From positions 186,001 through 250,000 of the forward strand of contig CAWUHX010000169.1 in the NCBI GenBank assembly GCA_963922205.1: 64,000 nucleotides of DNA. The letters run 5' to 3'. Shown here in pieces: positions 4,408-63,447 of the stretch. The stretch is from Romanomermis culicivorax (taxonomy: Eukaryota; Nematoda; Enoplea; Mermithida; Mermithidae). The notes beneath the pieces were generated by a model that saw only the letters and a program-made list of their open reading frames with translations, was not told the DNA's origin and made no database searches. Each line of letters opens with the position of its first letter. The stretch's first letter is position 1. The position numbers and the translations under genes were made by a program.

Positions 4408-6019
4408 AGGTTTTTTGTGCACGAACATTTGTGCCAATTGGCACAAGAGGTCGAAAAAATTTGTGAAAATGGCACAAAAATTTTTTTTTCAACTAGAAAC
4501 ATATACTGAAAACTGCGGAAAGATTTTAGGCCAAAAGTTTGATAAAAATATAACCCAATTAAAGCTACGTTCAACGCATTTTTTCTGTACAAATCGTGCC
4601 CAACTCACCGTTTTTTTCCTCGAAGATTTATTCCACGTGAGAACGGAACCCCAAAAATGTTTGAGTTTTTATATTCTATAACGCTGGAAAATAAATCACT
4701 GCAACAAATATTCGTGAACAGAAGTTCTAAAATCACAATCTGGAATGAGGTATTCAATTTCCATCGTCAATAAACGCAAAAGTTTATGTTGCAAACGTTC
4801 GAAAAATTCCGAGCCTCGAGAGAAAAAATTTTTTCAGCTAATCATGTCAGTGGGATAAGAAAAACTGTGCAAGAAAATAGTTTACGGGGACTTAAAAATA
4901 AATGGAATGCTGAGAAAATTTAAATAACTGTAGAATTGTTCAGGAAGTTCAAATCGATTCAATTTTCGACTACGAATGTAAAGGCTAGAAAAAATAAAGT
5001 CGAAAATTGTGTAAATTTCCGGTCGAAACATTGCACCAACGATATCGATTTTTCTATTTGAATCAATCAATCACAAAAAGTAAGAATTTCAGTTTTGAAT
5101 GCGAATCTGACTGAATGAACAGAGAATATTCAGAATTTCGTTTCATTCATCAGTCATTGACAGCCTATAATGTTTACTGCATGCAACGATATTAATACAC
5201 TGTTCGAAGAGAAATCGTTCGCGTTCAAATTTTTTTTTTGAATTTTCAGCTCTTAAAACGTCTGAAAATCAAGCAAATTTAATGTTTGGCCAGCCAAAAA
5301 GCCAGCTGGCACAAACGCTCAAAATTTTTCACAAAAAATTTGGAATGGCACAAGATTTTTTTGGGCGTTTGTGCCATTTGGCACAAATTTTTTGACTGGT
5401 CGATAGCTGAATTTCCTTCATTTTTAGTCATTTAGGGGCTGAAACGAAGAATTTTCTCGGCGCTCCGCGCCGAGTCAATAAGTGTAATAATTGATTACTT
5501 TTATATTTGTGTAGAACCTGAGGGAATTGCATTCGAATAATAGTAAATTTGTATGATCGCAACAAACTTTGAGATTGTCAATGACTGCAAAACGAATAGG
5601 AATGGTCAACTTCTACTGTTCATTCAGTGTGATTGGAAACCGAAATATTAAGTTTTGGTGTTTGATTCGAACAGAAAAATTGACATTGTTGGCACAAGTT
5701 TTCAACCAAAAATTTACGAGACGCGACCTTCGGCCTAGTTTTTCTCCAGGAGAAAGCACTTACGGACATCCTTAATTTATTTACATCGGTGTTAAGAAGA
5801 AATTCGTGCTTAGACAAAATAGAGTTGGCACGATTTTTAAGTAATGTAAATTAGTGTGGCGAAAGATCTTTAGTTAAGTTTTTATTAAACTTTTGGCATA
5901 AAACTTTTTAAAGGTTTTCAGTATGTTTGTAGGCTTGAAAAATTTTTTGTGCCATTGGCACAAATTTTTTTGGCCCTTTGTGCCCATTGGCACAAGTGTC
6001 CGTGCACAAAAAAAACGCT
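4408..6019. mobile_element. Non-autonomous DNA element related to the Mutator-like element at 10467
   Basis: The left end (TTTTTTGTGCACGAACATTTG) and right end (ending GTGCACAAAAAAAACGCT) are inverted copies of one terminus and carry the palindrome TTGTGCCAATTGGCACAA or a variant. Internal blocks match the element at 10467-12286, partly in inverse order, for example 5090-5230 against 10684-10800. There is no transposase ORF and no clear target duplication, so this is a rearranged or chimeric copy. Confidence 0.55.
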
Positions 6020-8083: not shown

Positions 8084-10192
8084 ATAGAAAATTTGCCAGA
8101 AACAACTGTAAAAATCAATAAATTTTTTCGATCAACCAAAATTATGACAGATCTCGCTTTGCAGCAATCACCTTTTTTTTCCTCGAAGATTTTTTCCACA
8201 TGAGAACCGGACCCAAAATTTTTTTCCTCATTTTCCAAAAATTTTCCTCATTTTTAAAAACACTTATAATGTGGCCTTTTTATGATTTTAGGAGCATACC
8301 CAAGCATTTTGTTGTATTTGGAGTCAGAAACCTGCAAAAATGTGGAAAAATTGAGAAAATTCTGGTTATGTTTGTTAAAAATGAGCTCATGAAGAATATA
8401 TTGGTGTTCTACAGGAGCAGGTGAAGCATGTTAACCAAAGGTCCCCAAGGTCAGATTTTTCAGGTAGGGGTAAAATTGAAACTTTGCAGGGGTAGTGTAG
8501 CTATAAATGTCTACTAAACATGTTATTTTGTCTCAAAATTAGGCAACTAGTGATCAATTTTTAGGACTTTAGGCTGGGGTAATACCCCCCTCATACCCCT
8601 CCCCATGGGGTAGTCTGATGTTAACGATAGAGTTCTCAGGAATTTATCGGCTCTATTGACATTTCGGTAGTTCCGATTAGAATCATCTAATTTTATTTAG
8701 CTATTGGTCTGGCGCAGAGCGCCGAAAAATTTTTTGAATTTGCGCTTTCTAAAACGCTGGAAAATGAACCATCACAACGTTGAGAAATAAATTAGAATCA
8801 AACTGATGAACTGTAATTTGTTCCCCATTCCGGCGCTTGGCGCCGGAAAAATTTCGGGTTTTTATATTCTAAAACGCTAGAAAATAAATCTTTCCAACAG
8901 ATATTCATGAATAGAAATTCTAAAATCACAGTCTAGAATGATGTCTTCAATTTCCATCTTCAATAAACGCAAAAGTCTAGGTTCCGAACGTTTAAAAAAT
9001 TCCAAGCATCGAGAGGAAAAATTGAGAGAATTGATGAAAAATCTCAATTTTGGACGACATAATGGACTGTTAACGATTAGAAAATGAAACGAGCTAACTT
9101 GATTGATGGAAACTGTTGAGCATTAATTAGTAAGTCGAAGTAGATATGCTAACGTCCGCGCCTGATAGAAAATAGTTAATATTATACCCATGACGGGCGA
9201 GAAGCGCCGGAAAATTTTGAGATTTTGACCCTTTTAAGTCCACCCAGGGTTGGCAAAAACCAAACTTTTGAAATTTCGACTTTTTGGTATTTTAGTGGTT
9301 TTTTTGGTTTTTCTATGGTTTTTTAGTGGTTTTTTTTCTGGTTTAATTCTTTAGAATGTTTGGTACATCAAAATTACTATTGTAAAAAAGTGCTGGAAGC
9401 TCCCTGTATCATCTAAGACTAGTTAGGGAGCCGTAAAATGGCAGCTAGAAGTATCAATCTTATCAGAAGTGTCATTATTTTATACTATAGGAAATCCCTA
9501 TTTAGCAATAGAAATACAGTAATAAAGGGCACATTAAAAAGGAACCATGAGTGAAGAACACAAGAAAAGAAAAAATGGGACAGAGCATGTGATATGTAAG
9601 GGGCAAATTCAAGGAAACGAAGAAAAATTACAAATAAAGAGAAATATACAATACACAATGTACGTAATCAAAACTCAGAAGAAATAACTACAGAATTGTA
9701 TCAATGCATCACATATATACATATGCACAGAGAAATTGAAATGACATAATTTTTAGGTATACCGTTTTCGATAAAAGGGTTTTAAATTGATAGATTATTA
9801 CATAATGTTATTGATATTACAAACTGCAGTTGAAGGTCACACATAGACGTTTCAGATGTTTCCAAATTTTTGCTTTTCAAACCTGTCTGCGAGCTATAAC
9901 TACAGCAAATGGGTCTTATTATTTATATACTATTCTCGCTTGCATGATAGATACATATTTTTGTACGATTTTTTTCTACTTAATAGCGACGTCAAGTCCC
10001 ATAAAAATGAACCACTCAAAAGCTCCTCTCTTTGTTAAACTACAGTATGCTTAACTGATCTGTATAAAATTTTATTATTGTCTCATTTATATTTTGAAAT
10101 TTCGAGCTAAGAAAATTAAAAAGCTTACCGTAACAATAAATTCAGTTTATTAAACTCAATCATATTTTATAACATTTTGAAGATGATATGGA

Positions 10193-13049: not shown

Positions 13050-14109
13050 ACATTTTGTTTGATGTGTCACATTAAACGAAAACTGGAGCCATGTCACATT
13101 AAACGAAATTGGGACAATCACATTGATGGGAAGAAACCCATGCCATATTTGTAAAAATACGGCCTTGTCACTGTGAGTGACATGCTGTGACCCCATTGGG
13201 TGGCTCGCTTTATATTCATTTTGCGAACCTAACCCAGCTGGTACTGGCTATAGGAGGGCCTATAGGGTACCTTGGTGCTGTCCTTGGGTTCTGAAGTAGA
13301 GTAATGGACAATGCCGCCGGGTCAGAGGTGGCAATCCCTAGTCCCATTCAGTGAGAATTGTAACGGTTCTCGCACACTGGGTGGTAGCTTCTCTACCACA
13401 GACTGCACAGCCCTGCATCGCCTGTTGCGACTGCAGCAGTGCTCGTCACAAAAATCCAGGTCTGGGCCTATGACTTGGCTGAGAAACATCAAGCCTATGG
13501 GTTCAGAGGAAAATGCGCGAAGGTCGCGCATCATCACATTCTCCTCCTAGGGAAGTGTGACGCCCTTGTCACAACATCCCTCCCCCTGCTGAGGCAGGCA
13601 AGGGGCCCCCTGGTACAGTCACCATGTAACAGTTCTCACACACTGGGTGGTAGCTTCTCTACCACTGACTGCACAGCCCTGTGTCGCCTGTTGCGACTGC
13701 AGCAGTGCCCGTCACAAAAATCCAGGTCTGGGCCCATGACTTGGCTGAGAAACATCAAGTCTACGGGTTTAGAGGAAAATGCGCAAAGGTCGCGCATCAT
13801 CACAGAATGAAATACAAGGCCATTTGTGGAATGGCCTACTGTAGGGGACCTGATTGTGAACCTAAATCCCCTTTTTGGTCCTAAACCCAGAGGTACAAGG
13901 GCTACTCTAACTGAGGGTATTCTCAAGGGAAAACAGGCTGAGGAAAGGGTTCCCACAAATACACCCTCAACAACAATAATCCCCTGACAAGACTTACCTA
14001 GTCCTTTTCTCAACTACAACTCAGCAGAGGGCAATGGGTTCAGGCGTTCATGGGTCCTGGAATGACGGGAACAGGATTATGGCGGTCCAGTTAGGTTTGG
14101 AGCAGGGTG
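13050..14109 (-). repeat. Leader relic of an element-2-type LTR retrotransposon
   Basis: Read on the minus strand this matches, block by block, the element-2 leader at about 50640-51180. Shared stretches include GGGATTTAGGTTMACAATC, TAGGGATTGSCACC and AATGGGGTCACAGCATG. It is the continuation of the LTR relic at 27793-28640, split by insertion of element 1, and is further interrupted by the TRIM at 13359-13804. Confidence 0.85.
13359..13804 (-). mobile_element. TRIM (miniature LTR retrotransposon)
   Basis: Two direct 180-bp repeats (13359-13538 and 13625-13804), each with TGT...ACA ends, enclose an 86-bp interior. On the minus strand the base after the first LTR starts a primer-binding-site-like TGGTGACTGTACC, and the second LTR is preceded by a polypurine AGGAGGAGAA. 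A 4-bp duplication GAAT flanks the whole (13355-13358 and 13805-13808). There is no coding capacity; it must have been mobilised by another element. It sits inside the element-2-type leader relic. Confidence 0.88.
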
Positions 14110-14945
14110 TGTCGTATTAACGTTCTCGTATGCCCTCGGCTGCCTACCTGCGGTTCTTGGGAGATCCAATCTGGTACGGCCCCTGACGCTAACCCGGTAC
14201 TAATTTCACTCCTACTGCAGTGAGTTGAGACTTGAGGTACGTGAACGTTTATTAGTGAGCAAAACACAACAGGTAGTGAAATACAATGAGGAATGTAAGT
14301 ACGAAACAAAGGTGCAGAGTGCCGAAAATATAAACACTGACGCCAACAACCTCCCTAGTCAACTGATCCTTCCAATTTGTCCCTGAGCAGCGAGCTACAG
14401 GGCCAATGGGATCTCTCAGGCCACGGCCTAAGCTGAAACTTTACCAAAAATAAGTGAACTGACTCCAACTACCACTCACTGGCTCCTTTCCTCAAAATGG
14501 AACGTCGAAAACGTCTCAGGCCGCGTTATCACTCAAAATTCGCCCGCGGCGCGTATCACGAAGTACAAAAAACAAGACGACGATCCTTTCCTCCGTCACC
14601 GTCGTCCAAAAATAACACAGCGTCCGAAAACTACGGTGCGGACGCCAATACTACGCAAAGGAGAGGCGATTCTCCGGACGACAATATTTGTCACAATAAT
14701 AATAACAAGAAAAAACTAAGAATGAATAAAAACGCTGGCGCGCGTCTAACATCGACCTGCAAGTGATATGCAAAACATTTGCGCCAACCATTTGTTTATT
14801 TTAGACCAAAAATATGAGTGACACAAACCGTTTTATCGGTTTGTTTACCTGAGAATAGATGAAAACACTTTAGCAATAAAGAAGCTTTAGAAAATGAAAT
14901 GATGTAATTAGAGGACCAAAGGTCAGAGGAATTGACCCTCTGACA
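14110..14945 (-). repeat. Element 1, 3' LTR
   Basis: This 836-bp copy begins TGTCGTATTA and ends CCTCTGACA on the plus strand. It differs from the other LTR by about eight substitutions (for example near 14120, 14171, 14316, 14386, 14621) and no length change that I could find. Confidence 0.95.
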
Positions 14946-14960
14946 TCCCTCCCCCCCAAA
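14946..14960 (-). promoter_or_regulatory. Element 1 polypurine tract
   Basis: Directly upstream of the 3' LTR on the minus strand is the purine run GGGGGGGAGGGA, followed by TGTCAGAGGG. This is the position of the plus-strand primer in reverse transcription. Confidence 0.8.
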
Positions 14961-16122
14961 GGCAAGACTTTTCCCGCCAGCGAAGGGAAAAGTCAGGAGG
15001 TCCCCCAAGGGCCCCAGACCCTCGACGCCGACGATCGACGCCTCCAAATGTTCCAACCAACGACGCTACGCGCCGTTGACGCAATTATAAACAATAAAAA
15101 ATAAAATGTCCGTATCGAACGGTATCGTTACAACTTTGGGCCAATTGCGCCGGATGCTACCCCCGACGCTACAAAATTCGCTAATAAAATGCCCCGTGGG
15201 CTCGTGGTCCCAAATACAAAAATAAAAAATGTTCGAACGAATAGCGTTCGCGGCACTCGGGCCGAATTTTGATCAAGATAAAAATAAAAACGTTTTATCG
15301 GCGGCGACCCCCGCGGTGCCCGAGTTAGGTTGTGGGCTGCTCCCCACTGCCGTCGATTTATTTCGTATCGGCGGCTCCTCCATCACGGATTGTGGCATTC
15401 GTCTCCGTCCTCTCCGGAGGGGGGGTTGTTGCTCGTGGAGAGCCCGCAAGACTTTCCAAATTCCGCCGCCGTTGCTCCTCTGGCCCCTTGGCCGGACACT
15501 GGCCCCCCCAACGCCTTTGGTATTATCTGCCCCCAGGGAGAAAGGATGCCTGAAAAATCAAATCCTCTGGCCCTTTGGCTGTCTAGATTTTGAACCAAAA
15601 ATATTTAAGGTATTTATTGCTAAAGTGAATTTGCCTTATTAAGAGGTAAACTTAAACCCATAACACGGTCTGTGCCACGGAAAAAATTTTAGAATGAAAA
15701 TGTGTTTTGGGAAAAAAAAGATGGAAAAAATATGAAAATGGCAGCGCAAAGCCTGCTACCCTTGGGCGATGCCAGTTGGTGACTTTTGTCGGAAAGGAAC
15801 AAAATACCCGAGATTTTAAGAAAATACAAAAAATTGCTCAATAATTTCCAGATTCGCAAAAAAGAAATACGATATATTCCCGTGCAGATCTCGAACAAAA
15901 CACAAACGAAAAAATAAATGAAACAATTTGAGATTAGTACAGGAGGCAACTTTAAGGCATAAAAAGGTGGCACAACCGGTTTCGATTTTGTAATACAGAC
16001 GCTCAAAACGGAAGAAAAAAAAAAAATAGGCAACTTTGAAATATCGAAGAAATTTTACAGAACGGAATAATTATCTTTATAATGACCTCACGGAGAGCGG
16101 GGTCATCTGAAACATAAAAATT
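14961..16122 (-). other. Element 1 region between ORF2 stop and 3' LTR
   Basis: About 1.2 kb with no supported ORF on the element's coding strand. It contains a GC-rich part (about 15130-15560) and an AT-rich part (about 15600-16080). ORFs on the opposite strand here have no recognisable domain. It probably serves as 3' untranslated sequence of the ORF2 and genomic RNA. Confidence 0.5.
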
Positions 16123-19100
16123 TTACTTCCTTCTATGACCGCTATGGTCACGTCCCGGTTGACCAATACCGGTTTCCCGTTTAAGCGGCGAAATATAATC
16201 GGGATTTTCAGTCGACGGCGGTCTCGTACTCGTAGACGTCCCCGGGATGTCCATCCTTTCCTCCGTTTGCACATTACGCACCGGCGGAATCATTGTAGGC
16301 GGAGGCATCTGCATTCCCGGCGGAACTAAGAACTGGTGGTAAAATTGGGGTTGCCCGGCCTGGAATTGCATGACCGGAAACTGCGGGACTTGAAACTGTG
16401 CCGGCGGCGGCACCATTGTATTCGGGAATAATTGTCCTGAAAAAAGAGGGCGGTTTATACAATCAACACCCACCATCGGCAATCCCGGATAATTCGGCGG
16501 TAAATAAGGTAACTGCTGCTGCTGGGCTTGCATCATCGCGTTTGGATCGGCCATTGACACTCCTTGCTGAGTTGTTTCGGTGGCCCTAGACCTGTCCAGT
16601 GAAGTCCTTCGACTGGAGTAGGACACGTCCACTCTATCATCGTGTTGGTAATATGCGGCTGTTCTTTTTCTACTTCGAGACTCTCTACTATCTTTACGTT
16701 CTGCCGCTTCTCTCTTTTCTCTTTCCTTCCTTTCGTATTTCTTTTCGTAGTCATCGATCTCCTTGCGCCAACTTTCTTCTTCAGCTTCCTTGCGTTTCTT
16801 TTCTCGCGACATCGACTTCTCGTGACGACTTTCGTCTCTGTGTCGACTTTCGTGCCTTCTTTTTCTGTCGTTTTCCGGCGTTTTCGATTTCTCCGTTCTT
16901 TGCGTATCACTTTCTTTTCTACTCCATCTTTTGGATACCTTACTGGTCGCAGGCCTAGCGTGGGCATGCTTGACTCGGTATCCCACTCTTTTCTTCAATG
17001 CTTTTTGAACTTCCAATATATCGTGAGCCTTCTTTCGATCGATAACTTCCCAAAACCGTATTCTGGGGTCCGTATTGTCAATTTCCTTCTTCCAAACTTG
17101 TATATTCGCGTATTTGGGTTCAGGGTCCTTCTTGTCTTGCAGCACGGCCTTAGCAACCGTATAGGCTAACCCCGCTGCCTTTGCCTGACATGAGGAGTAT
17201 AACCTATGAAAATTGCTCCCTGCTCCTCCTTGCCTAGCGTTGAATTCGCGACGCAATTTCATCGTAACATACGCATGGGCTTGGTAATGGAATCCAGCGA
17301 AATTTTGGGGAATCCTGCCCAATCTCGACAATTTCATAAATAGACACGCGCAGGCCCATACGGCGGCTTCATAAGCTTTCTCCGCAGACCGTGTAGTACT
17401 CCATTCCGTTAATTGAAGCTCGAAAATACTCCACAATTTTTCTGGCAAATTCGCCTGTAGAACGTGAAACTGTAGTTCGTAATATCGTATAGTTTCAATT
17501 TCGATCCCTGCTTCGTCGTACACACGGTTTATCAAATCCGTCGCCATTAGAGCTACCTCTTCGTCTAAAGTGGGATCCATGTGCGCGAGATACTTCTGGA
17601 CACATGGGTTTGACAGAGATACTCTCCCATACTGGAAATCTACGACGTACTTTCCTTCCTTCAAGGCCTTGTTAAGAACTTGTCCCCGTTTCCCGAGGCC
17701 CCGTCGATACTTTACTTTATCATTCGGATTTCCGGCTGGCTGTTGAAACTGCCCGCTCTTTACTTTGTCCAGTTCGGCTTTGTTTTCTTCGCGACCTATC
17801 CGTTTCTCTGTAGCCTGTCTTTTCGATTGCATCACCTTAGCAAATTTGTCCGGATTCTTGATATTCTCTACATTTTGCCCACCGGCTTTTGCATAAACCG
17901 GCGGCGTGGGCAAAACGTTATCCGTAATTTCTTCGTCATCGCTACCAATCTCTGATACCACCTCCACGTAGGGTTCTTCGCTCGTTTCTTCTTCCTCGGG
18001 ATTGACATCTTCTAATTGCTTTGCCAATTCGATTGCGGCCTTGCCGTATTTTTCTTTTTCCAAAACTTCTATTTTTTCTTTCATTTCCTTTATCTGGTCG
18101 GTTAATTTCTCCAAATCGGGTTGGGTTTCTTTTTCAGTTTCGACTATTTCCATGAGTTTCTCCTCCTCTTCAACACCTGTACTCCCCTCAGCGGGTGTAC
18201 TGGCGATAGGGGGATCCGTGATGACCACAACTACGGGTTTCTCTTGCTCCATCTCGGTACCTGAAACATTCGAATTATCTATTGTAGAGGGTACTGTTAC
18301 AGTCTGCTCCTTCGAAGTTTCTTCCATAGGGCCCTGGCTAGCGGGAACCACAACTTCTACTTGCGGAATCAGATCTGAATCGTCCCACTTATTTACAGAT
18401 TTAAAAGTCGCAGAGGTGCTAGGGGCCCATAGGTCCTTAGCCTCGAATATGGACGCGGAAACATTCCAATAAATGAGGTTCTGACTCGCGGCATGGATAT
18501 TCAGAAAATGAAACAAGTTATAAAAGTTACAATTCATATGATAAATAGAATTATCGCGCAAATTGGTCTTTATTTCTTGGATAGGTTCTTTGCAGGATCG
18601 CGGTATCCATCTTATAGGTAGTACGCAAAAAGTATTCTGGATGGATTTCTGCGTACGTATCTTCGGATACCGTTCCATCATCTGCTCCATTTGATCGGTA
18701 ATTTTGTCGTTCAAAAGATCCTGGCCCATCCACTTCATGAATTCAATCCGTTCCTGTTCGGTTCTCCACACAGAGGCCCACATACCAGACGTGAATCCAG
18801 GAACCCAGGATTTCCACTCCTGCGCCGAGTGAGGCCACAAGAAGTAAATAATCGGGTTTACGTTTTTCTCGTACAACTCTTTGACTATGGGGACGATTGA
18901 TCGGTTGATTTTGGAGTGATAATGATCTTTGAGTGCCGAAACTTGTTCTCGTATAACATTAGTGAACTGGATCACATCCTTAGGCCATTTTCCTTTTTTC
19001 ATTTCCATTTCCCGGGGTTCAATTGGTCGTCCGAAATGTCGTGCCGCCAGGATATCCTCTAAATCCCAATCGTTTGCCGGTGCTTCTTCGGAATCGTCAG

Positions 19101-20489
19101 TATCTTTTCTTTTCCTTGACGCTTTCACTTTTCTTTCTATCCACGGGAACCAACCGTTGGGTACTGGCTGTGGCTCAATATCGGTATTGGAGAAATGCGG
19201 AGGACAATGAAAAGTCCCGGGCGCCATTTCTTCCGACGATTTATACGTCGCGATAGCTTCTCCACGCATCATGAAATACAACGCGTTGGTGTTATCCGTT
19301 ACTTCTTCCACTCCATATGCTCCTTTCCACTCTGGATCGGCAATTCTACCTTCGAACGTATCTCTGAATCTTCGTGCTAGATCGGAGATCAATTCCGGCT
19401 CCATTGTGTCGTGTGGGTACAATTGAAAGCAATTTTGAATATCGCTCGCGAATCCATATCGAAGTAACGCTAAAAAACATAAAAGCGACCCGCGCGCGTC
19501 GAGCGTCGCGTATCTCAAAAGTTCTATGTTTAGCTTATCTGCCTCCATTAGCTGTCGAAACTCTAGGGAACTCAACTGTCCCCACGAAATCTTGAAGGCG
19601 TCGGCCCATAAAAACAAAATTTCCGTCATGAGGGCTTTCAAATTGAGACCTTCGGGGCTGATTCCGACTATTCTGGCTTTCGGCTTGTCCTTCATTTCTG
19701 CCAACACAATCTCCAAATCGTAAACGCAGCATGATAAAATATAATCTATGTTGTCCCGTTTTTTCCGCACTAGTTCTTTTTCTTGATCCAAATATCCGAA
19801 TTTGGTCAAAACTAACGTGATATCCTCTCGAATATGAAAACCGACGATGATGTTTTCACGGCGAAATATTGTTCCATATACTTTGTGGAAATGTTCTTTG
19901 TCCCAAAATTTCAAATCGATTATGAAGTTCTTTCCGCACATGGTTGAAATTGTTAAAAGTCGCAATGCGTCGCTAGGCTTCGATCCTGGGGTTTTTGGCT
20001 TCCTCCCACTTTCTGTATCCAACGCTATGACTATCCGTCCTCGAAACTTCGAATTGTTTATCGCTCTAATAAATGCTTTCAAATTTTCGGGTGCCAAAAA
20101 TAATGGTTCTTCGATGGCCGCATGAGGCACACCGAACAACGACGTGAAATAATTTGAAATATCCGTTGAACGCACTAATCTTCGAACATTGTAATCTTAA
20201 AATTTTCACACAATTTTCTAACTACAATTTTTGACAATAATTTCGAAACAAAAACGACTCAAATGCACAAGAATAAATTTGGACGAAGGGGAGTTGATCA
20301 GGCTCTCAAACACCCAAAATCCTCGGCATATAAATTGCCGGCCGGTCAACTTAGAGTCCTATTCCGAAAAATTCCAACATATATTCTACCTTTCCGATAC
20401 TTACTACTAAGTTGAAAATTCGTATTATCTTGCCGATCTTGAGGCTGCCCGAAGGTGCTATCAATTTCGACGATAGTGGACGTTGCCAT
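16123..20489 (-). CDS. Element 1 ORF2: DEDDy exonuclease / shared post-pol domain / SR- and KE-rich protein
   Basis: Proposed join of 20489-20405 (ATG exon, 28 codons) and 20195-16123; numbering below counts from residue 1 of the 1350-codon block starting at 20175. Residues 30-245 fit a DEDDy 3'-5' exonuclease (RNase D/WRN/EXD family): Exo I IALDTES (D53, E55), Exo II VGFHIREDI (D118, His where Asn is usual), a LNLKALM helix, and Exo III LRYATLDARG (Y222, D226). Residues 600-760 are acidic and disordered with a short coiled coil (about 685-720). Residues 830-1010 form a helical domain shared with the element 3 protein (SLSNPCVQKYLA and LPEKLWSIF). Residues 1080-1200 are rich in R/S/K/E and 1210-1300 in P/Q/M. 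No signal peptide or membrane segment, so it is not an envelope although it sits in the env position. The long block has no in-frame ATG before the exonuclease, which supports the spliced start. The nuclease call is firm by motif; its biological role is unknown. Confidence 0.85.
20196..20404 (-). other. Predicted intron of element 1 ORF2
   Basis: The donor is GTAAGTAT (20404 downward) and the acceptor ends TTTTAAG at 20196. The upstream exon ends in phase 1 and the downstream frame resumes in phase, giving one continuous ORF that starts with an ATG. Without splicing, the downstream frame is preceded by TAA and has no early ATG. Confidence 0.65.
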
Positions 20490-20888
20490 ATCGCGTTTGG
20501 ATCCGAATTTCTTGAAATTTCCAATCGACGAAAATTACTAATACACTAACGCTTTGCAAATGAAATCTAAAAAATAATTCCATAATTCCTCGGCTTCGCG
20601 ACTTCAATGATTCGGGGAAGATTTTCCCGGGACTTATAAAGATTTAATTTTTTCACACTGAGCGCGTGAAAAAATATTATTTCGCCCATTAAAAATTTTC
20701 CGGCGTCGTAATTTTTTGGAAAATGCCTAAAACTTGCCATAAAGTTGCCAAAAATAAGTCAGTACAATTAAAAATTGAAAAAGGAGAAAGGGGAAAAGGT
20801 TAGAAAAAATATAATACATAGGGCATTAGAAAATACACATAAAATTAATCCTAACAAAACGCACAACGAAAACGATAAAAATGAATTG

Positions 20889-23800
20889 TTAATTACAGTA
20901 AAAATCGGGCGTTCGCGTAACAAAAGGCATTACGCGATTTACAGAAACTATTTGTACGCGCGAATCTGGTTTCCCAGCGCGACGTATTTTAATGACATTT
21001 TTTTCTAAATTCGATGTCTCAATTACTTCGTACGGACCGTCGTTTGTTGTATCGGCCTTTCCTTTGATAATTCCCTTTTGGTAGAGAACAAGTTCTCCCG
21101 TTTGGAATGTTTTTTCGCGAGCCTTCTTATCGTACTGTAGTTTTCTTTCGGCCGCTGATTTTTTATGGTTTTCATTTATGATTTTATACGTGTTAAGGAG
21201 GTGCTCCGTTAACATGTATCTGTAGGTATCGTAATTATTCTGGATAATTATTGGCCTCGCTATCTCATTATCCAATTGAAACCTAGCCTCGTGCCCGTAC
21301 AGTAGGCTATGGGGGGAATTTTTCGTTGTTTTGTGCGGCGTAATCCGATATGCAAATAAAATTTGCTCGAGATAGTGTGGCCAATCGTCCGGGTCGGTTA
21401 TCGCGACTCTCCTAATTTGTTCTATTAACGTTCTATTGAATCTCTCCACCATACCATTGCATTGCGGGTGGTATGGTGTTGTATTTATTTTCTTTATTTT
21501 TAAGAGATCGCACACGTTGCGCATTAACTCGGACATGTATGCTGAGCCTTGGTCACTCAGCAAGTGTTTCGGTGTTCCATGCGTATAAATGACCTTTTCC
21601 ATAAATGCCTTCACTATTGTGTCGGCCTTTTGATCTGGGATGCATTTTGCTTCGACCCATTTCGTGAAATAGTCCATAAATACAATAACGTATGGTCTTT
21701 TTTCTCGGAGGGGCGAAATACTGACCACATCGGTTGCTACTATCTCCCACGGGTACGAGACGGGTATTGGGTTAAGCGGTTGGATCGGATTTGCTATGGG
21801 GCGGCACAGTTGGCAAACGACGCAGGATTTTATCCATTTAATAATGTCGTTTTCCATATTTGGCCACCAAAACTTGTTTCCTATTGCAGCGATAATTCTA
21901 TCTATTCCCTGGTGCCCCATTAATGTATCGCCGTGATATTGATGTAAGATGAGGTATCTAAGTCTTGATGGGATCACTAGTTGGCTTTTCCCATGGGCAT
22001 TTTCGCGGTATAATACTCCGTTTTCCAAGTGAAAACTATTAAAGTATTTTTTCAAACTATTTTCACCAACGTTCCGAAAAATGTCCACCAACTTCGGATC
22101 CAATTGTTGTTGTTGCTTAACTAATTCCAGGGAAAACAATTCGGAATCTTTTTTCACTTCTTTCGGTGTTTGATCTATTTCTTGTTGGGTCGGCGGTGGG
22201 GGATCAATGAATGTTTCCTGAGTCTCGGGTTCAAGCATTTGCCTCGTCATGGCTCTCGTAACCGCCATGCATTCGGGTTCCGTAGTCGATTTCTCCTCTT
22301 CGATTTCTTCCTTTGTTTTTTGTTTTTTACTCCGAATCTTTTCCTTTTCTTCGGATCGTGATAAGAAATCCGCGAAGGCGTTTTCACGTCCGGCTACGTA
22401 TTCGAATGCATAATTGAATTGACCAAGATATAAAGCCCATTTTAACAACCTTTGATTTTGCTGCTTCTCCGCGGAGAGCCACGTGAGTGGTTTATGGTCT
22501 GTCCTGATTGTGACCCTAAACCCCATCACGTAGTGCCTATACTGCTTGAACCCGTAAACTACCGCCAAACATTCTCTTTCTGTCGTTGAATACCTTGTTT
22601 CCGCGTCGTTTAAAACTCGACTCGAGTAGGCTATTGTCCATCGGTCATTTTCCATTTCCTGATACAAAATTGCCCCTATTGCCGTTCCTGAGGCATCTGT
22701 TTGAATGACAAATCTTGCCGACCCGTCAAATACTGGATATCGAAGGAAGGGTGCCGTCATTAGGGCATTCTTTACGCTTTCAAAAGCTGCTAACTGCTCC
22801 TCTGAAAGTTCAAACTTTTCCTTCCTATTCTTTTTTGCGAGGGCTTTAAATAAGGGTTGGGCGATAAAGGCTAAATTATGAATGAAACGTTTAGACCACT
22901 GCACTAATCCCAAGAACTTTTGCAGCTGCTTGATGGATTTGGGTACTTCGAAATTTTTTACCGCTTCTATTTTTTGTGGATCTACTGACATTCCGTTCTT
23001 GTCCAATACGTGGCCTAAGAATTTCACACTGGCTGGCATAAAGGAACATTTGTCAGGTTTTAGTGTGAGGTTCGCCTTTGTTAGACATCGAAATATTGTC
23101 TCTAAATTTTCTATATGCTCTTCGACAGTTTTTGAAAAAATTATAACATCGTCGATATATACTAGACATATTTTCCATACATATGGGTACAAAATTCGTT
23201 CCATGAGTCGTTGAAATTCCGCGGGAGCATTCTTTAAACCGAACGGCATCACCTTGAACTGGAACAAACCTTCTTGACATATAAATGCTGTTTTTTCTTT
23301 TGATTCGGAGTGCATGGGTACCTGCCAGTACCCAGACTTTAAATCCAAAGTGGAAAAGTACCGTGCTCCTCCCAGCGCATCTAAATAATCATCTATTCGA
23401 GGTATTGGAAATTTGTCGTCTTTCGTCACTTGATTGATTCCCCTGTAGTCGACTACTGGTCTCCATGTGCCATCTTTTTTGCCTACTAAAAACAATGGCG
23501 CAGCCCAAGGGCTTCTAGAAGGCTTGATGACACCCTTTTCCATCATGTCTTTTACATGTTCTCGAATTATATCTCTTTGCATAATTGGAGCTCTCCAGTA
23601 GTGTTTCTGAACAGGTAGCGCATCTCCTGTATCGATCTTATGCTCCGCTTCATGGGTGATTGTTAAAGGATCGCTCTTCATGCTAAATGCCTGCCTATGC
23701 TTGAGTAAGACATTCATGAGCTGTTGTTGTCCTTCTCTATCGACACTCGATTCTTTCACCAGCTGCGTAACTATTTTGACGAATTCGGGTTCGATTTGCC

Positions 23801-26800
23801 ACTGAGTTTGGGGCTCCGATTGCAGTTGATGTATTTTTTCGTCAAATTCTGGCCCCACGAACTTTGTTTTGGTCTTGGCTATCAACTCGTTGCCACGCAG
23901 TTTGATTCCCTTGTTTGTCTCATTTATGAGTAGGATACGAAAATTGTTGTCTCTAGCGTCCACGATTGAGGCATCGACGTCAAATAAGGTATCTTTCCCC
24001 GTCTCTTCTACCACTATGGGACCCTTTGCCCAATCTTTCTGTGGCCAAACCACAGCTTGCACAAAAGAAGTGGTATTTGGGGGAATATATGCCCCATTCC
24101 TTGTCCAAATAAAGGTTTCTTCGTTCATTTCAGTAATTCGCATCACTTGTTCTTGATCCTCGTCACTTTCTAATCCAGGTAGATCTTCTTCTTTGACTTC
24201 CTCTTGTAGAGGTACGTAATCCAGAACCATTGGATTCGTAGGAATTGGTAAACGGGACGGTATTTGCGCATCGTCGAATAATGTCTCACTAATAATTTGT
24301 TTCTCTACATTTGCTAGGCGTATGTGGCCGTTTCGAAAATCGATAGACGCCTGTATACTAGGATGGGTTAGAAAATCTAGACCCAATATAATACCTTCAT
24401 TTAGGTTATCTAGTAACGCGAATCTGGCCAAAAAATTCCCAAAACCGGTTCCAACGTACACAAATGTAGGACCATATGTTGTCACTCGTTTTCCGACAGC
24501 TGTTACGACTGAATTTAGGATAGGGAATTTTGTTTTGGGCGTATTCAGTAGCCTCGACGCTGTATCTGTCCTCATAAAGCTAGATTGCGCTCCTGTATCG
24601 ATTAGGGCTTTAAATTCTTCTCCGCGTATCCTAACGGGTATCAATAACGGTTGACATTTGCGAAAATTTTCCAAAAATAGATGCTCGTTATCATTGGCGA
24701 GTCTAGGCTTTGTTTCTGAAGTAGAATTGATAACGTTGCCCAAGCCTAACTCGTAATTCTCTATCAAAACTCCATCTAATGCTATAATTTCCGGCTTATC
24801 TTGTTTTTTAGCCTCTTGTGAATTTATAACATTTACGGAATTATTCGGAGGGTTATTCACCGGTTGCGATGTTGCTGCGGGTACAATATTTGGCGGTGGC
24901 TGCGGGACGTTATTTTGGCGGTAATAATATGCCACATTAGGATTCTGTTCGACGTTATTATTGTGATATGGCACCCGTTGGCCGAAATTAGCAAATCCTG
25001 CTCTTCCACGATTTACAAAGCCGCCGCGATGGTCAAAATTCCGATTATAAAAATTATTGCCGCGATTCCATGATCTCCCTTGATCCGTTGGTTGGATCAA
25101 TTCCGGGTGAAGGATAAAACAATTTTCAGACGAATGACTATTCGATTTGTGGTATGTACAATATGGTCGACGATACGGATTTCCCAAAATTCTACCAGGT
25201 AAATTGTTATTATATGGTACATTATTAGGACTATTATTGACTCCCCAACGATTAAGAGCTGGAGGGCCCTGATTCCTTATTGCTTCGTTAACCATTTTCA
25301 TAATATCCTGTTGAGACAAAGGGGTTTGAAATGCTGGTGGTGGCGGGAAAATTTGCTGAGGCCGTATAATCTGTTGCTGTTGACCTATATTACTATCCTG
25401 CGGACGAAATTGTAAATTATTAAATCTTTTATTTTCATAGACTCGATTCAACCGGTCATCTTCGCCGTCTTCCTGGTCCTCGCTGAATTCCTTCCAGGCC
25501 GTCGTATCGGCTTTCAATTTGTTTACAAACTCCGCCAAAGAGGCGATATTTTTGAACTCGTGCAGCCGACCTTCCATTCGCGTTTGGACGTAAACTGGAG
25601 CTTTGTGAAAATATGTTTCGATGACAATACGATTTCGTTCATTTTCGGTTTTTTCATAATTCAATAAATGAACATAAGTTTTTATTCGTCGTAGAAAATC
25701 CTTTGTCGTCTCCCCTTTTCGTTTTTTCATATCATGTAACTCCCTTCTAAGTGCAGGAGTGTCCATTTTGGGAGCAATCATTCTAATCACACTCGCTTTT
25801 CCTTCTTCATAGCTACTATTTTTATCCACGTATGTCGAAGTTTCAAAATCACAACATCGCCAAAGTACTTCAATTCTAAGGTCTTCCGTATCTTCAGGCT
25901 TGAATGTGCCTTCCAGACAGGCGAAAAAATTGAGTATTTCTGCGGCCTCCATTTTATCCGATATTTCTTTGTTCTTCATTCGACCCAAAATTACCTTGAT
26001 TCTTTTCTCAGGATCTTCACAATATCGTCCATAATCATGCTGATTTCGAGGGATATTTTCAGATATAGGTTGCTCCATTCCGCGATTCCATGACGTTGTT
26101 GGTATTTCATCTTCCATCCTTCGATATTGTGCGCCTTGAGCCTGTGCCTGGGCGAGATGATTTTCGAACCAATTCAATTTCCTTTCTAAACTCCTGTCTA
26201 AATGGTCTTTAACCGGTTCAGACTGAAGTATTTCCGTATTTTCGTAATTTGATATTCTTTCATCGAACTTCTTATCCGTTTTCCTCATCAACTCCCGCAT
26301 TTGTTTTTCGACCTCTTCCATTATCTTTCTCGCATTTTGTTGATCCTGTTCTCGTAACCTTTCCTCCAATAATTTTCTCTCTGCTCTTTCTTGCATAAGT
26401 TGTTCTAATATTTCTTGTTCCCGGAGCGCTGCTTTCGTTCTTTCTACATTAACGGCATTTGTTGATTTATCGACCACTCTTTGCATTGATTCCAGGATGG
26501 CTAAAGTGGCCACATCCTGCAAATTCCCTTTCGTCGGTCTTTCAGTTTCATTCCTTGGTTTCGTTTCGATACCAATTTTTGCGTCGATTTCCGGTATTGT
26601 AGGCGTATATTTCGAATTATGAAATGATACCACATTCGTTTTCGGGGTTACATTAATCTTTTCGAAGGATGATACTGAACCAGAGGACGTCTGTATCCCC
26701 TGATCCGCATAATCATATGTCTCTGCGTCAATAGTGTGATCTTTGTTGCTGTCATCGGGTGAATTCGCAAATTTCTTTGCTACTTGTTCGATCGTTGCTT

Positions 26801-26921
26801 CCATATTTGCCATCCGTTCGTCGTGATCCTCTTTATTCAATTCCATTTGCGATAATGTTACTTTCGGCCGTCGTCCAGGTTGCTTCCGTATCGTTAATTT
26901 CGGCTTCGATACTTTCTTCAT
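20889..26921 (-). CDS. Element 1 Gag-Pol polyprotein (2010 aa, single frame)
   Basis: Starts at ATG 26921, 31 bases after the LTR. Residues 150-235 are a charged coiled coil; about 290-480 resemble a Ty3-type Gag capsid region; [14 protein letters not shown] (588-601) is a zinc-knuckle variant spaced C-X2-H-X4-H-X4-C. The protease has [10 protein letters not shown] (D775). The reverse transcriptase spans about 1130-1320 with [28 protein letters not shown] and VYIDDV (1254-1259). RNase H is about 1400-1490 (QTDAS, TERE, RTDHK). The integrase has an HHCC finger (about 1660-1703), then D1731, D1790 and E1826 (DD35E), and a C-terminal GPY-type module (DGPYEV near 1961). There is no frameshift between gag and pol, so protein ratios must be set otherwise, probably by processing. 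All catalytic residues checked are present. Confidence 0.95.
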
Positions 26922-26934
26922 CTTTTACCTTTGT

Positions 26935-26952
26935 AGCTGCACAAGTCACCAA
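26935..26952 (-). promoter_or_regulatory. Element 1 primer binding site
   Basis: On the minus strand the 5' LTR end (TACGACA) is followed by one T and then TGGTGACTTGTGCAGC, which would pair with a tRNA ending AGTCACCA. The first eight bases equal those of the TRIM primer site at 13617-13624. I could not assign the tRNA. Confidence 0.7.
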
Positions 26953-27788
26953 TGTCGTATTATTGTTCTCGTATGCCCTCGGCTGCCTACCTGCGGTTCT
27001 TGGGAGATCCAATCTGGTACGGCCTCTGACGCTAACCCGGTACTAATTTCACTCCTACTGCAGTGAGTTGAGACTTGAGGTACGTGAACGTTTATTAGTG
27101 AGCAAAACACAACAGGTAGTGAAATACAATGAGGAATGTAAGTACGAACCAAAGGTGCAGAGTGCCGAAAATATAAACACTGACGCCAACAACCTCCCTA
27201 GTCAACTGGTCCTTCCAATTTGTCCCTGAGCAGCGAGCTACAGGGCCAATGGGATCTCTCAGGCCACGGCCTAAGCTGAAACTTTACCAAAAATAAGTGA
27301 ACTGACTCCAACTACCACTCACTGGCTCCTTTCCTCAAAATGGAACGTCGAAAACGTCTCAGGCCGCGTTATCACTCAAAATTCGCCCGCGGCGCGTATC
27401 ACGAAGTACAAAAAACAAGACGACGATCCTTTCCTCCGTCACCGTCGTCCAAAAATAACACAGCATCCGAAAACTACGGTGCGGACGCCAATACTACGCA
27501 AAGGAGAGGCGATTCTCCGGACGACAATATTTGTCACAATAATAATAACAAGAAAAAACTAAGAATGAATAAAAACGCTGGCGCGCATCTAACATCGACC
27601 TGCAAGTGATATGCAAAACATTTGCGCCAACCATTTGTTTATTTTAGACCAAAAATATGAGTGACACAAACTGTTTTATCGGTTTGTTTACCTGAGAATA
27701 GATGAAAACACTTTAGCAATAAAGAAGCTTTAGAAAATGAAATGATGTAATTAGAGGACCAAAGGTCAGAGGAATTGACCCTCTGACA
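26953..27788 (-). repeat. Element 1, 5' LTR
   Basis: An 836-bp direct repeat of 14110-14945 with the same TGTC/GACA ends. It should hold the promoter for the genomic RNA. On the minus strand it contains CTAATAAACG, a possible polyadenylation signal. The 89-codon ORF on the opposite strand is present in both LTRs but has no sign of being a gene. Confidence 0.95.
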
Positions 27789-27792
27789 GGTG

Positions 27793-53265: not shown

Positions 53266-53472
53266 CCGTAGGCCCTTACTTCTTGGCGTACATATTGCAA
53301 TATGAGATTATGGCACTTACATCCCAGTCACCTGAGGTCAGCACCGAGTGTGTGGTGGTGTATATCACATCTTTTGACATCAGCACCGGGTTACTGTGGG
53401 TTTCCAAGATGCCGCTTGAGTCCTAAGTGATGATTGTAGAATTACTTTCTCACCTACGGCTCTTGTTTAGGG

Positions 53473-54168
53473 TTGTGTCTGTGTGTTACTGGTGCCTGGG
53501 AAACATCGGTCAACATGCTCACGCAACCTGATATGCACTCGGTCCGTGATACTGATCAAGTTGTCCGCAAGGGTAGCGGCACTGATGGATCAGCACGTGA
53601 CTACTCTTCTAAGCTTCGCACAAAGGTGTTTGGTTTACAAAAGCTCATGGAAATACGTCCTGGCTTTTATAGCACTAACCAAACACTGGAGGTGATGTAC
53701 TCATGGTGCTGCAATGATGTCTGCAAGACAGTGACTAACCTCTTCATCGAGGAGGGACAGGTCGCTTCGTGGGATGGCACTACAGCTCTAAGTACCTTAG
53801 GAGATGTAGGTGGATGCAGTCCCACTGCAGGTCAATGCACTACTCTTGACAGGGTAATTGTTTGGCCTGCTACAAACTTTACAGCACAGTGTCATCATCG
53901 CCCACAGGGTAATTACACTGCATCTGTATCAGGGAACTACATCATCATCGATGATTTGCAGGTTGCCCTGAAGATCCCGGGAAACTCTCGTATGTTTCGG
54001 CTGTGTCCTGACCTCCGGTTGAATACAGTAAGAACGGATCAGGGTCTTCTTCTACGCATCCACGGAAGATTTAATTTGACCCACAGGTTGTTCGGATTGG
54101 CAAAGGATTCTGTCCCTGACCCCCTCAATGCCAAACTGAACTACCTGGCTCAGCAGATCAAGGAATAG
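53473..54168 (+). CDS. Element 2 envelope-like glycoprotein, N-terminal part
   Basis: Open frame of 231 codons starting in the track at TTG, with in-frame open sequence back to 53440; a GTTTAG acceptor at 53470 suggests splicing onto a leader exon. First ATG at 53515. The protein has many cysteines and several N-glycosylation sites (NQT, NFT, NYT, NLT), fitting an ectodomain. No signal peptide is seen, so it may lie on another exon. It ends at TAG (54166); the next ORF continues in the same frame 21 bases on, so the stop is probably a mutation or a readthrough site. The family is not certain. Confidence 0.6.
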   Translation: MCLCVTGAWETSVNMLTQPDMHSVRDTDQVVRKGSGTDGSARDYSSKLRTKVFGLQKLMEIRPGFYSTNQTLEVMYSWCCNDVCKTVTNLFIEEGQVASWDGTTALSTLGDVGGCSPTAGQCTTLDRVIVWPATNFTAQCHHRPQGNYTASVSGNYIIIDDLQVALKIPGNSRMFRLCPDLRLNTVRTDQGLLLRIHGRFNLTHRLFGLAKDSVPDPLNAKLNYLAQQIKE

Positions 54169-54189
54169 GAAATTAACAATTTTCGATTC

Positions 54190-55410
54190 ATGTGGCTTGA
54201 ATTGTGCTCTCACGCTCAATGCTACCTTGATCTGACTTGGCAGTTGCTTCGTTTTGACCCTACACTCGGAGCCCGGGCATTCCTTCAAAGGAATGATCTG
54301 ACGGCGGAATTTAGGGGTGAAGCACTGAGGATATGGCCGTGTCGAAAGGTCAACGCCACTTATGTCTACTATTTGTACCGAGTGGGGGACACCTGTTACA
54401 AGTATCTACCCGTACAGGTTGGCGGTACCTTTTATTTTGCCACCCCCGGTGGCCCGGATCTCACTAAATTCAGTCGGAAGGTGCCGTGTGACCACCACTT
54501 CACAGGGATTTTCCGAAATCGCTCTGGCTGGTTTACTGAGTCTGGCACGGTCCATGTGAGCCACATTCCGCTTGAGCTGTTCTGGAAACAGCGCTTCAAC
54601 GTCACTCACTTTGACGCTCCTGCGCTCTTCCATGATCAGTTGGCAATGACCGCTTCAAGTTTTGCTTTCTTTAAACAGTACATTTACAAGACTGAGCAGA
54701 TTGAAGCGGTCTTAAACCGGTTGGTAAACTTTACCGCTGGTCTATCCCTCCAACCCGATACTATCTATCAAGCGGTTGCAGGGGTGGGAACTGACATCAA
54801 ATCCTCACTGGAAGGTGTTGGTCTGGCAGCAAACCATGTGATTACTGGCCAACAGCACAACCTCATGCAGGGCCTACAGTCTCTCTTGAGTGGACCAGTG
54901 CAGTTGATCTTTAACACACTCATTGCCCTGGCAGTATTGGCCGGTACAGGATTTCTCATCTACATTGGGATCTCCTACTACCTCAGCTATTGCCTGCGGA
55001 AAAGACAGGTTTGGTTTGTTAGCCAATACTCTCCGTTGAACCTCCTCCGGAAAGTTCAACGTTGGGTAGGTTTTCATTACGTACAGAACGATGTGCCAAC
55101 TCAGTTAGACAGGATCACTCCGTGTTTTGTCGTACTAGTTGACCACAAGGAAACCCCTGCTTTCCTTGATACTGGTTGCCCACGGACTATCATTAGTCAA
55201 CGCCTTCACAAAGCGCTGATCAAAGAGAGTCCGAAGGCGGCGATGGCCTTCCAGCAACATCACGACTTTAACCCATTGATGAGTATCAATGGTAAAGCTG
55301 TCCATACCCTCCTTTCAGGACCGTACGAGATCATGTTGCCTGGAACCCGTCAGCCACATACAAGGGTGAATATACATCTCCATGTGTGTAAGACTACGTC
55401 TCCTTTCTGA
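54190..55410 (+). CDS. Element 2 envelope-like C-terminal part fused to aspartic protease
   Basis: 406 codons from ATG. Residues 1-235 continue the ectodomain with paired cysteines and glycosylation sites (NAT, NRS, NVT, NFT), and a heptad-like segment at about 185-235. A membrane span lies at about 237-267 (LIALAVLAGTGFLIYIGIS), followed by basic YCLRKRQ. After only about 45 residues comes a retropepsin with FLDTGCPRTIIS (D327). The frame ends at TGA (55408), and the same frame continues with the protease's second hydrophobic strand (LILGLDFLEQF), so the stop cuts the protease. Arrangement seen: membrane glycoprotein joined in frame to Pol on its cytosolic side. The envelope family is not established; I do not name it. 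Confidence 0.7.
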   Translation: MWLELCSHAQCYLDLTWQLLRFDPTLGARAFLQRNDLTAEFRGEALRIWPCRKVNATYVYYLYRVGDTCYKYLPVQVGGTFYFATPGGPDLTKFSRKVPCDHHFTGIFRNRSGWFTESGTVHVSHIPLELFWKQRFNVTHFDAPALFHDQLAMTASSFAFFKQYIYKTEQIEAVLNRLVNFTAGLSLQPDTIYQAVAGVGTDIKSSLEGVGLAANHVITGQQHNLMQGLQSLLSGPVQLIFNTLIALAVLAGTGFLIYIGISYYLSYCLRKRQVWFVSQYSPLNLLRKVQRWVGFHYVQNDVPTQLDRITPCFVVLVDHKETPAFLDTGCPRTIISQRLHKALIKESPKAAMAFQQHHDFNPLMSINGKAVHTLLSGPYEIMLPGTRQPHTRVNIHLHVCKTTSPF

Positions 55411-55434
55411 GCACCGGTCGATCTGATTCTTGGA

Positions 55435-58400: not shown

Positions 58401-58725
58401 TCAGGAACTAGCCTCCATTCTTAGGTCACTAAAACCCTACGGAAATCAGAATGATGTTAATGGCTACCACCTGTTGGATAACATCCTTCTGAAGCAGACA
58501 GGCGAGTCCAACAAGATTGTTGTCCCTCGATCCATGGTTACTACCATTATTGAAGCTCACCACAATGACATTCTTGCTGGTCACTTTGGTGCGAAACGTA
58601 CCGCAAGGCTTATAGCCCGCAGGTACCACTGGTCTTCCCTCAGTGCGGACGTCAAGTCCTTTTGTCAGCGGTGTGACCTTTGCCAACGGAATAAACCCGC
58701 AAGACAAAGACCCGTGCAACTCTGA
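55435..58725 (+). CDS. Element 2 Pol: protease end, second protease-like domain, RT, RNase H, integrase zinc finger
   Basis: 1096 codons. Residues 1-35 finish the first protease. Residues 50-110 are an R/S/P-rich linker. Residues 225-335 look like a second retropepsin fold (HIKVLLNNW, LNDTVAVFSLL, EIVLGTNFLGRF) in which DTG has become DTV (244-246), so it is probably inactive. RT covers about 535-720, with LTYLDDILVF (651-660), but between STSPWA and FCGLNEVT about 12 residues including the usual KKDG and Arg are missing. RNase H is about 795-880 (QTDAS, MELET, QTDHT). Residues 945-980 hold three AQHL-type repeats. The HHCC finger lies at 1042-1083. The frame stops at TGA where a one-base shift starts the integrase core. 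Confidence 0.88.
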   Translation: MDFLEQFQNITFDYQKHVCQLNAVELPLLLTTAEIDQINPWWENTCSLSRASYRSGSRSRSRTLSISPPPLRASSVASSRGSTRGSRTSSRQASGHCMAWSGSNCPRPPPGNSPVTLEKGRFREPSDSGAPASPVLEVPPLSDAEVESLGATQSSGERSDHVLTVQVNPTPTTNPETSVGYALVGLLRCTGLPIPRRTNAPESSFDDSVPDPGHVVSAFYPTAMRTPHIKVLLNNWVEAKALNDTVAVFSLLDHKLAVQLPNLVLTETRARPIAANGSPILLLGAAYVTVTVADVSERIQVQIQENCSAEIVLGTNFLGRFNCVSLNWEKSFLQFKELRVPCEGLIRNPPSARGALPLQELIVLEPRSLTQFTAPVPSMYATVPEVAFFPKPLLGQQRNVYFAGTVSTVTNGRIPLQVVNPSTHSVVLYPHTTIGHVQMHIDSSQGSAVKSDTVLDRKWVEANAVISSDISSQDKAALLDLLVAFTDLYAIDEKDTGSTDLLHHEISTGDARPVRCFPYRTAPKEKDLIIQEVKALQEKGIIRPSTSPWATNTVLDFCGLNEVTKKDVYPLPRIDDILDTLKGMKYFTTLDQANAYWSIPIAEADKEKTAFNTPIGLYKFNYLPFGLCNAPGTFQCLMDLLLTGLQWRTALTYLDDILVFGNSHTQMLEPLMDVFTHLRQGGMKLRLSKCKFSHSEVEYLGYRISQKGFEPDKVKLAAVQDLPIPQNAKDIKSFLGLLSYYRRFIPGWARLSEPLTKLLRKEVTFQWSKPQQAVFNELRRLLLNPPVLRHLDFTKSFILQTDASISGIGAVLSQLDENEYDHPVAYASRGLTAAQKNYTIMELETLAVVHFVKHFPPYLFQHEVVVQTDHTAVKAVLEKLNPSSRIARWGLALAESKLTIRPRKGRSNGNADALSRLPDPNSLAGESIDDIPLYRPEGEVMMISDGAQHLANSSHRTTNGVQHLARSESYAEISQDAQHHDLLATQFEDQELASILRSLKPYGNQNDVNGYHLLDNILLKQTGESNKIVVPRSMVTTIIEAHHNDILAGHFGAKRTARLIARRYHWSSLSADVKSFCQRCDLCQRNKPARQRPVQL

Positions 58726-63435: not shown

Positions 63436-63447
63436 TTTGGTGACTGC

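Follow-up and report, generated by a model that had tools for sequence, protein, structure and literature searches.

Exonuclease genes in mobile elements

Retrotransposon genes coding for DEDDy 3'-5' exonucleases have been described in bdelloid rotifers. According to Rodriguez, Kenefick and Arkhipova (2017, PMC5408684), the long terminal repeat (LTR) families Juno and Vesta are reported to possess third open reading frames (ORF3s) coding for DEDDy exonucleases, which were acquired at least twice and are shared with Athena elements. In these rotifer ORF3s the DEDD signature is changed to DEED, and roles in 3'-end processing and in silencing have been discussed. All members of Juno, Vesta and TelKA also encode a dUTPase between the protease (PR) and the reverse transcriptase (RT) (PMC5408684). 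The finding of rotifer DEDDy ORF3s is cited in PMC6431247, PMC5718144 and PMC6338049. The Terminons, Athena Penelope-like retroelements of bdelloids, likewise include a DEDDy ORF, but they encode a Penelope-like RT and are giant multi-ORF elements that do not belong to the LTR type (PMC6431247). Dada is another mobile element that has acquired a DEDDy exonuclease, but it is a DNA transposon and the domain lies within its transposase (PMC3706591). Here we describe a complete and intact Ty3-type LTR retrotransposon of the nematode Romanomermis culicivorax, located on the minus strand at positions 14110–27788 of a 64,000-nucleotide stretch (C169:186001-250000, hereafter the window). The N-terminal domain encoded by its last gene, ORF2, is very probably a nuclease of the DEDDy 3'-5' exonuclease type, an assignment made by sequence comparison.

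The Romanomermis element resembles Juno and Vesta in being an LTR element with PR, RT, ribonuclease H (RH) and integrase (IN) domains in pol, a DEDDy ORF past pol and little divergence between its LTRs. The rotifer ORF3s are reported to be spliced, as is predicted here, and in both cases the domain is distant from cellular homologues. Compared by description, the rotifer elements differ in possessing a dUTPase, for which no model is present among the 12 Pfam matches of ORF1 of our element at E-values up to 1, and in having LTRs of 159–551 bp as opposed to 836 bp (PMC5408684). LTR elements with a DEDDy gene are already known from rotifers (PMC5408684), and this overtakes an earlier note on this DNA, made from the sequence alone, whose author knew of no LTR element carrying one in the env position. 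The titles and abstract openings of the literature searched on DEDDy exonucleases and retrotransposons offered no example of a DEDDy-bearing LTR element from outside rotifers. The features that are new here are the large protein of several domains encoded by a gene with a predicted intron, the intact DEDD signature, the lack of a dUTPase match and the evidence of selection. The dozens of intact copies, the strong purifying selection on the catalytic core, the predicted intron and the recurrence of this gene order in a second family indicate that function is the reason for the retention of the gene, and they provide a concrete protein with which to ask how a retrotransposon benefits from encoding a 3'-5' exonuclease.

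Cellular DEDDy exonucleases such as MUT-7, WRN, RNase D, Rrp6 and EXD2 (PF01612) contain the ExoI D-x-E, ExoII D and ExoIII Y-x3-D motifs in the same order. They share so little sequence identity with the domain of the window that a search with only the window sequence does not detect them, and they are fused to unrelated regions. The same genome also contains multi-copy ORFs of about 609 amino acids (aa) coding for DEDDy-like proteins, represented by L077–L079 on contigs C344, C101 and C440 (genome G000). The PDB sequences nearest to these are a MUT-7 homologue and WRN, and the two that were scanned match PF01612 with E-values of 3.6e-14 (L077) and 2.7e-11. They share no BLAST similarity with the window domain save for short stretches with E-values of 0.85 or worse.

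The exonuclease-like domain and its conservation

The domain comprises 261 aa (window 19393–20175, minus strand; residue 1 is the V at 20175), and its assignment is carried by its motifs, by a second family that connects it with the 3'-5' exonucleases of Pfam, by the position after pol in two families and by purifying selection. As the earlier note had pointed out, IALDTES, VGFHIREDI, LNLKALM and RYATLDARG are read in this order along ORF2 on the minus strand. They include the ExoI motif D-x-E (D53 and E55 in IALDTES, 20011–20019), the ExoII aspartate (D118 in VGFHIREDI, 19822–19824) and the ExoIII motif Y222-x3-D226 (RYATLDARG, 19498–19512). When the 261-residue domain was shuffled 100,000 times, 2 of the resulting sequences fitted a strict DEDDy-like pattern and 1,724 fitted a loose form, both patterns being of our own design, and the motif pattern is unlikely to have arisen through chance.

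The second family was recovered by a search of the genome (359 Mb, 595 contigs) with PF01612, in which 116 places were listed, seven of them weak (E 0.04–0.63) and located in frames of 1232–1398 aa. Four loci were retrieved from among these seven, and each of them is homologous to the domain of the window (23–25% identity, E 3e-20 to 7e-22). The homology extends over residues 1–260 in three loci and over residues 36–260 in L074, the start of which is damaged; it is independent of the selection by PF01612. D53, E55, D118, Y222 and D226 are invariant in an alignment of four window-type and three second-family copies. PF01612 matches three of the second-family copies with E-values of 9.5e-5, 4.2e-4 and 7.8e-4, and is the sole Pfam family found for two of them and the best for the third. 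In the second-family copy C9, an upstream integrase, confirmed by Pfam, is 49% identical over 403 aa to that of the window element (E 3e-125) and ends about 1.3 kb upstream of the exonuclease-like domain. Therefore, the exonuclease ORF is located downstream of pol in both families, which are well separated from each other and the second of which is represented by one copy. The proposal of the earlier note that a DEDDy exonuclease-like domain occupies the env position, in the second ORF and after pol, is supported.

Several results weigh against the assignment. With the window domain alone, no DEDDy or exonuclease family was found in Pfam, PDB, PHROGs or NCBIfam, the window copy and 17 others did not match PF01612, a profile of 18 copies matched no exonuclease family, and a PDB search with the second-family locus L071 alone retrieved no exonuclease. 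The whole of ORF2 has no relative at an E-value of 0.001 among 5.8 billion proteins. A single-sequence AlphaFold2 prediction of the window domain gave an unusable model with a predicted local distance difference test (pLDDT) score of 39, and a profile comparison with the 609-aa ORFs of this genome, whose DEDDy character is clear, was weak, yielding a probability of 7.5%, although the ExoII aspartates were aligned. The PF01612 matches of the second family amount to 19.7–22.7 bits, just below the curated cut-off of 23.6, and begin at profile position 50–52, past ExoI, covering the region from ExoII to ExoIII. Moreover, the second-family loci were picked by PF01612 itself, so that their Pfam E-values are somewhat flattered (genome-wide E 0.04–0.12).

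EXD2 (6k17) was found in a profile search at E 0.79 with the ExoII and ExoIII regions lined up, ranking below calmodulin (E 0.66). A query with Escherichia coli RNase D returned 5,075 proteins, of which the 120 listed are 88–100% identical and too narrow for a family profile; the named proteins among these 120 are from Escherichia, Citrobacter or Salmonella. In viral contigs, 87 stretches fit a pattern and none of them encodes a relative.

The element is one of many copies. At least 146 genomic places show 87–100% identity, a lower bound given that these were scored out of 2,656 first-look candidates. In 53 of the 146 listed, a frame stays open for 1300 aa or more, and six of these 53 carry a flag for a stop within the match. 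The domain is thus not confined to one decaying copy, the outcome that the earlier note had named as speaking against its reading, and it recurs in the second family. In all eight pairwise comparisons of individual copies, the ratio of the proportions of nonsynonymous (pN) and synonymous (pS) differences in the domain is 0.062–0.087. Among five segments of ORF2, it shows the strongest constraint in seven of these pairs, the exception being the WIN-L061 pair, in which the segment 791–1060 is lower (pN/pS 0.029). Between subfamilies (four pairs), pS is near saturation at 0.70–0.77, and the pN of the domain is 0.048–0.058. All 36 copies whose ORF reaches 1300 aa or more retain the five motif residues; these copies were selected for intact frames, a choice that favours conservation. 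The same residues are retained in 68 of 70 loci, or 53 of 55 once 15 duplicates are removed. In the two loci that depart from this, L065 and L070, the ORF2 frames measure 1278 and 611 aa. These comparisons show the exonuclease-like domain to be under purifying selection.

The relationship between the two families may extend beyond the domain. Residues 269–640 of ORF2 reach a local alignment score of 59 with the second family, as compared with a mean of 36.7 (standard deviation 5.2) in shuffles, of which 1 in 300 reaches 59; this similarity is suggestive only. When two later pieces of the second family were searched with ORF2 by tblastn, the best match had an E-value of 0.09. Elsewhere in the window, a 668-aa ORF with a basic, RG-rich tail is located at 61444–63447 on the minus strand, the frame being open to the window edge save for one stop. 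A stretch of 53 residues in this ORF matches L080, a piece of a second-family ORF2 (BLASTP E 1e-4), and no match to ORF2 itself was obtained by BLASTP (best E 1.4). The ORF may be the C-terminal part of the ORF2 of a third related family, extending past the window.

ORF2 expression and possible functions

The open frame of ORF2 extends over 16123–20196 (minus strand, 1357 codons from stop to stop); in the window copy it lacks an ATG close to its beginning. In a one-intron reading, the ATG is missing because the start codon would sit in an upstream exon. A first coding exon of 85 nucleotides is predicted at 20405–20489, with its ATG at 20489, followed by an intron of 209 nucleotides at 20196–20404, which starts with the donor GTAAGT at 20404 and ends at 20196 with the acceptor TTTTAAG, and by an in-frame join to exon 2 (16123–20195), giving a spliced product of 1385 aa. 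The exon 1–intron stretch was surveyed in 70 loci, 31 of which, including the window copy L003, span it in full while 39 are cut by the fetched boundary. The ATG, both splice sites and the frame are intact in 30 of the 31, and L018, the exception, has a stop directly past the splice junction. When divergent copies are aligned, the splice sites are kept and the intron interior gains and loses bases. ORF2 is probably translated from a spliced message with exon 1 at 20489–20405. In many copies of the divergent subfamily, codon 7 of the ORF is an ATG in the same frame (DYNVRRM), and for these copies an unspliced start of ORF2 is possible. By eye, the predicted intron is rather well conserved between subfamilies with near-saturated silent sites, which suggests a second function for it, for example in regulation or packaging.

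Beyond the exonuclease-like domain, ORF2 contains a K/R-rich stretch (44 of 126 residues) and a P/Q-rich tail (46 of 171), a composition that would suit a ribonucleoprotein-associated protein. A second constrained region is located at 17011–17799 (minus strand); for residues 791–1060, pN/pS is 0.08–0.11 between subfamilies (four pairs). It is helix-rich in a low-confidence model; an AlphaFold2 prediction of residues 800–1062 from the window sequence alone reached a pLDDT of 37 and is unusable.

Taken as a whole, we favour with moderate confidence a reading in which a recently active Ty3-type lineage possesses a probably spliced last gene for a 1385-aa protein, with a divergent, probably catalytic DEDDy 3'-5' exonuclease. 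The last gene, at the place of a retroviral env, would be expressed from a spliced message, and its N-terminal domain would be a divergent, presumably active member of the RNase D/WRN/MUT-7/EXD2 superfamily. RNA 3' ends are the favoured substrate, and the remaining parts of the protein may hold the nuclease on ribonucleoprotein. The likeliest purpose, which we put forward tentatively, would be the trimming of RNA that otherwise limits the element, whether small RNAs of the host or RNA of the element that is defective or double-stranded. That the protein is a dedicated counter-silencing nuclease, maintained as a regular last gene and shortening or destroying host small RNAs from their 3' ends as a mirror image of MUT-7 and Nibbler, we consider unlikely; if true, it would explain the high copy number of the lineage.

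Alternatively, the exonuclease could act as a replication helper that trims or proofreads the 3' ends of element RNA or cDNA prior to integration, as has been proposed for the rotifer ORFs, a possibility about which we are doubtful. It is element-encoded and lies beside the integrase in two families, processing of the 3' ends of element RNA was proposed by Rodriguez et al. (PMC5408684), and the DEDDy domain of the DNA transposon Dada is thought to process cleaved 3' ends (PMC3706591). However, ORF2 is a separate ORF outside the gag-pol polyprotein, and its delivery into particles would need an extra step. Also, most Ty3 elements are not known to carry such an exonuclease. As the gene lies apart from gag-pol, we judge the trimming of host small RNAs or unwanted element RNA to be slightly more likely than a role in processing the 3' ends of the element itself.

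The domain could also be an RNA-binding nuclease fold without catalysis, as in Maelstrom or EXD1, and inactive DEDD derivatives do act in the PIWI-interacting RNA (piRNA) pathway (PMC5408684). We regard this as improbable, as none of the catalytic residues varies, nor does the tyrosine, among the 36 full-length copies or in the 25%-identical family, a conservation that would not be needed for binding alone. It is more improbable still that the ORF was captured from a common retroelement pool and does little, its conservation reflecting the recent amplification of a few copies. DEDDy ORFs are shared between element classes in rotifers, and the env-like and GDSL-like ORF3s of rotifers display mostly neutral within-genome variation in a test that lay outside the DEDDy ORFs (PMC5408684), but recent amplification alone cannot yield the near-saturated pS and the low domain pN seen between the subfamilies. 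Lastly, an envelope-like protein with an incidental resemblance to exonucleases, for which the position after pol and a predicted spliced expression like that of env could be cited, is scarcely credible and was rejected, because in a hydropathy scan ORF2 has no transmembrane segment and no hydrophobic start (highest 19-residue hydropathy 1.29, as opposed to 2.21 in the glycoprotein ORF at 54169–55407 of the same window), and thus lacks the signal peptide and transmembrane anchor of a retroviral-type env, and because the Pfam link of its relative is to exonucleases.

Element architecture and other features of the window

The description of the element as intact in the earlier note agrees with its architecture. 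The 5' LTR (26953–27788) and the 3' LTR (14110–14945) were identified by blastn of the two ends; they are 836 bp long with the termini TGT...ACA, and the pair is identical at 828 of 836 positions in a gap-free alignment. The element is flanked by the 4-bp target site duplication CACC, at 27789–27792 on its 5' side and 14106–14109 on its 3' side. One base past the 5' LTR lies the sequence TGGTGACTTGTGCAG / TGGTGACTTG (26937–26951, minus strand), which from its position and TGG start can be read as a putative primer binding site, and the polypurine tract GGGGGGGAGGGA (14946–14957, minus strand) abuts the 3' LTR. ORF1 (20889–26921, minus strand) encodes a gag-pol protein of 2010 aa, in which Pfam identifies PR, RT, RH and IN in the order of the Ty3/Gypsy type. 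Together with the LTRs, the target site duplication, the primer binding site (by position) and the polypurine tract, this order gives the element the features of Ty3/Gypsy membership, and it is part of a recently active Ty3-type LTR lineage.

Relatives of the pol protein were searched by scoring only the 7,972 candidates with the most words in common. Among the 120 matches listed, most of the named proteins with the highest scores belong to the pseudoscorpion Cordylochernes scorpioides, and the full-length relatives of greatest similarity are 44–45% identical over 99–100%. The canonical SL1 22-mer gave 0 matches with up to 1 mismatch, which makes a nematode that uses this leader an unlikely source but is compatible with nematode lineages that lack it. 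Beside the 3' LTR, at 13359–13804, the window contains two direct copies of a 180-nucleotide sequence (94% identical, spacing 266 nucleotides), and two direct copies of a 177-nucleotide sequence (85% identical) are located about 4.2 kb apart at 4654–4830 and 8847–9023.

Between 27 and 53 kb of the window no open frame of at least 200 aa was listed. A second Ty3-type region is located at 53440–59726 on the plus strand and includes a glycoprotein ORF that matches PF24664 (Monjiviricetes_fusion, E 8e-13). This ORF lies upstream of, and runs into, a protease-like DTGC motif, which is followed by RT, RH and IN, so that an env-like sequence precedes pol. Among the 120 pol matches listed, PF24664 and pol domains are combined in four proteins of 2293–2490 aa (P0182, P0199, P0203 and P0218).
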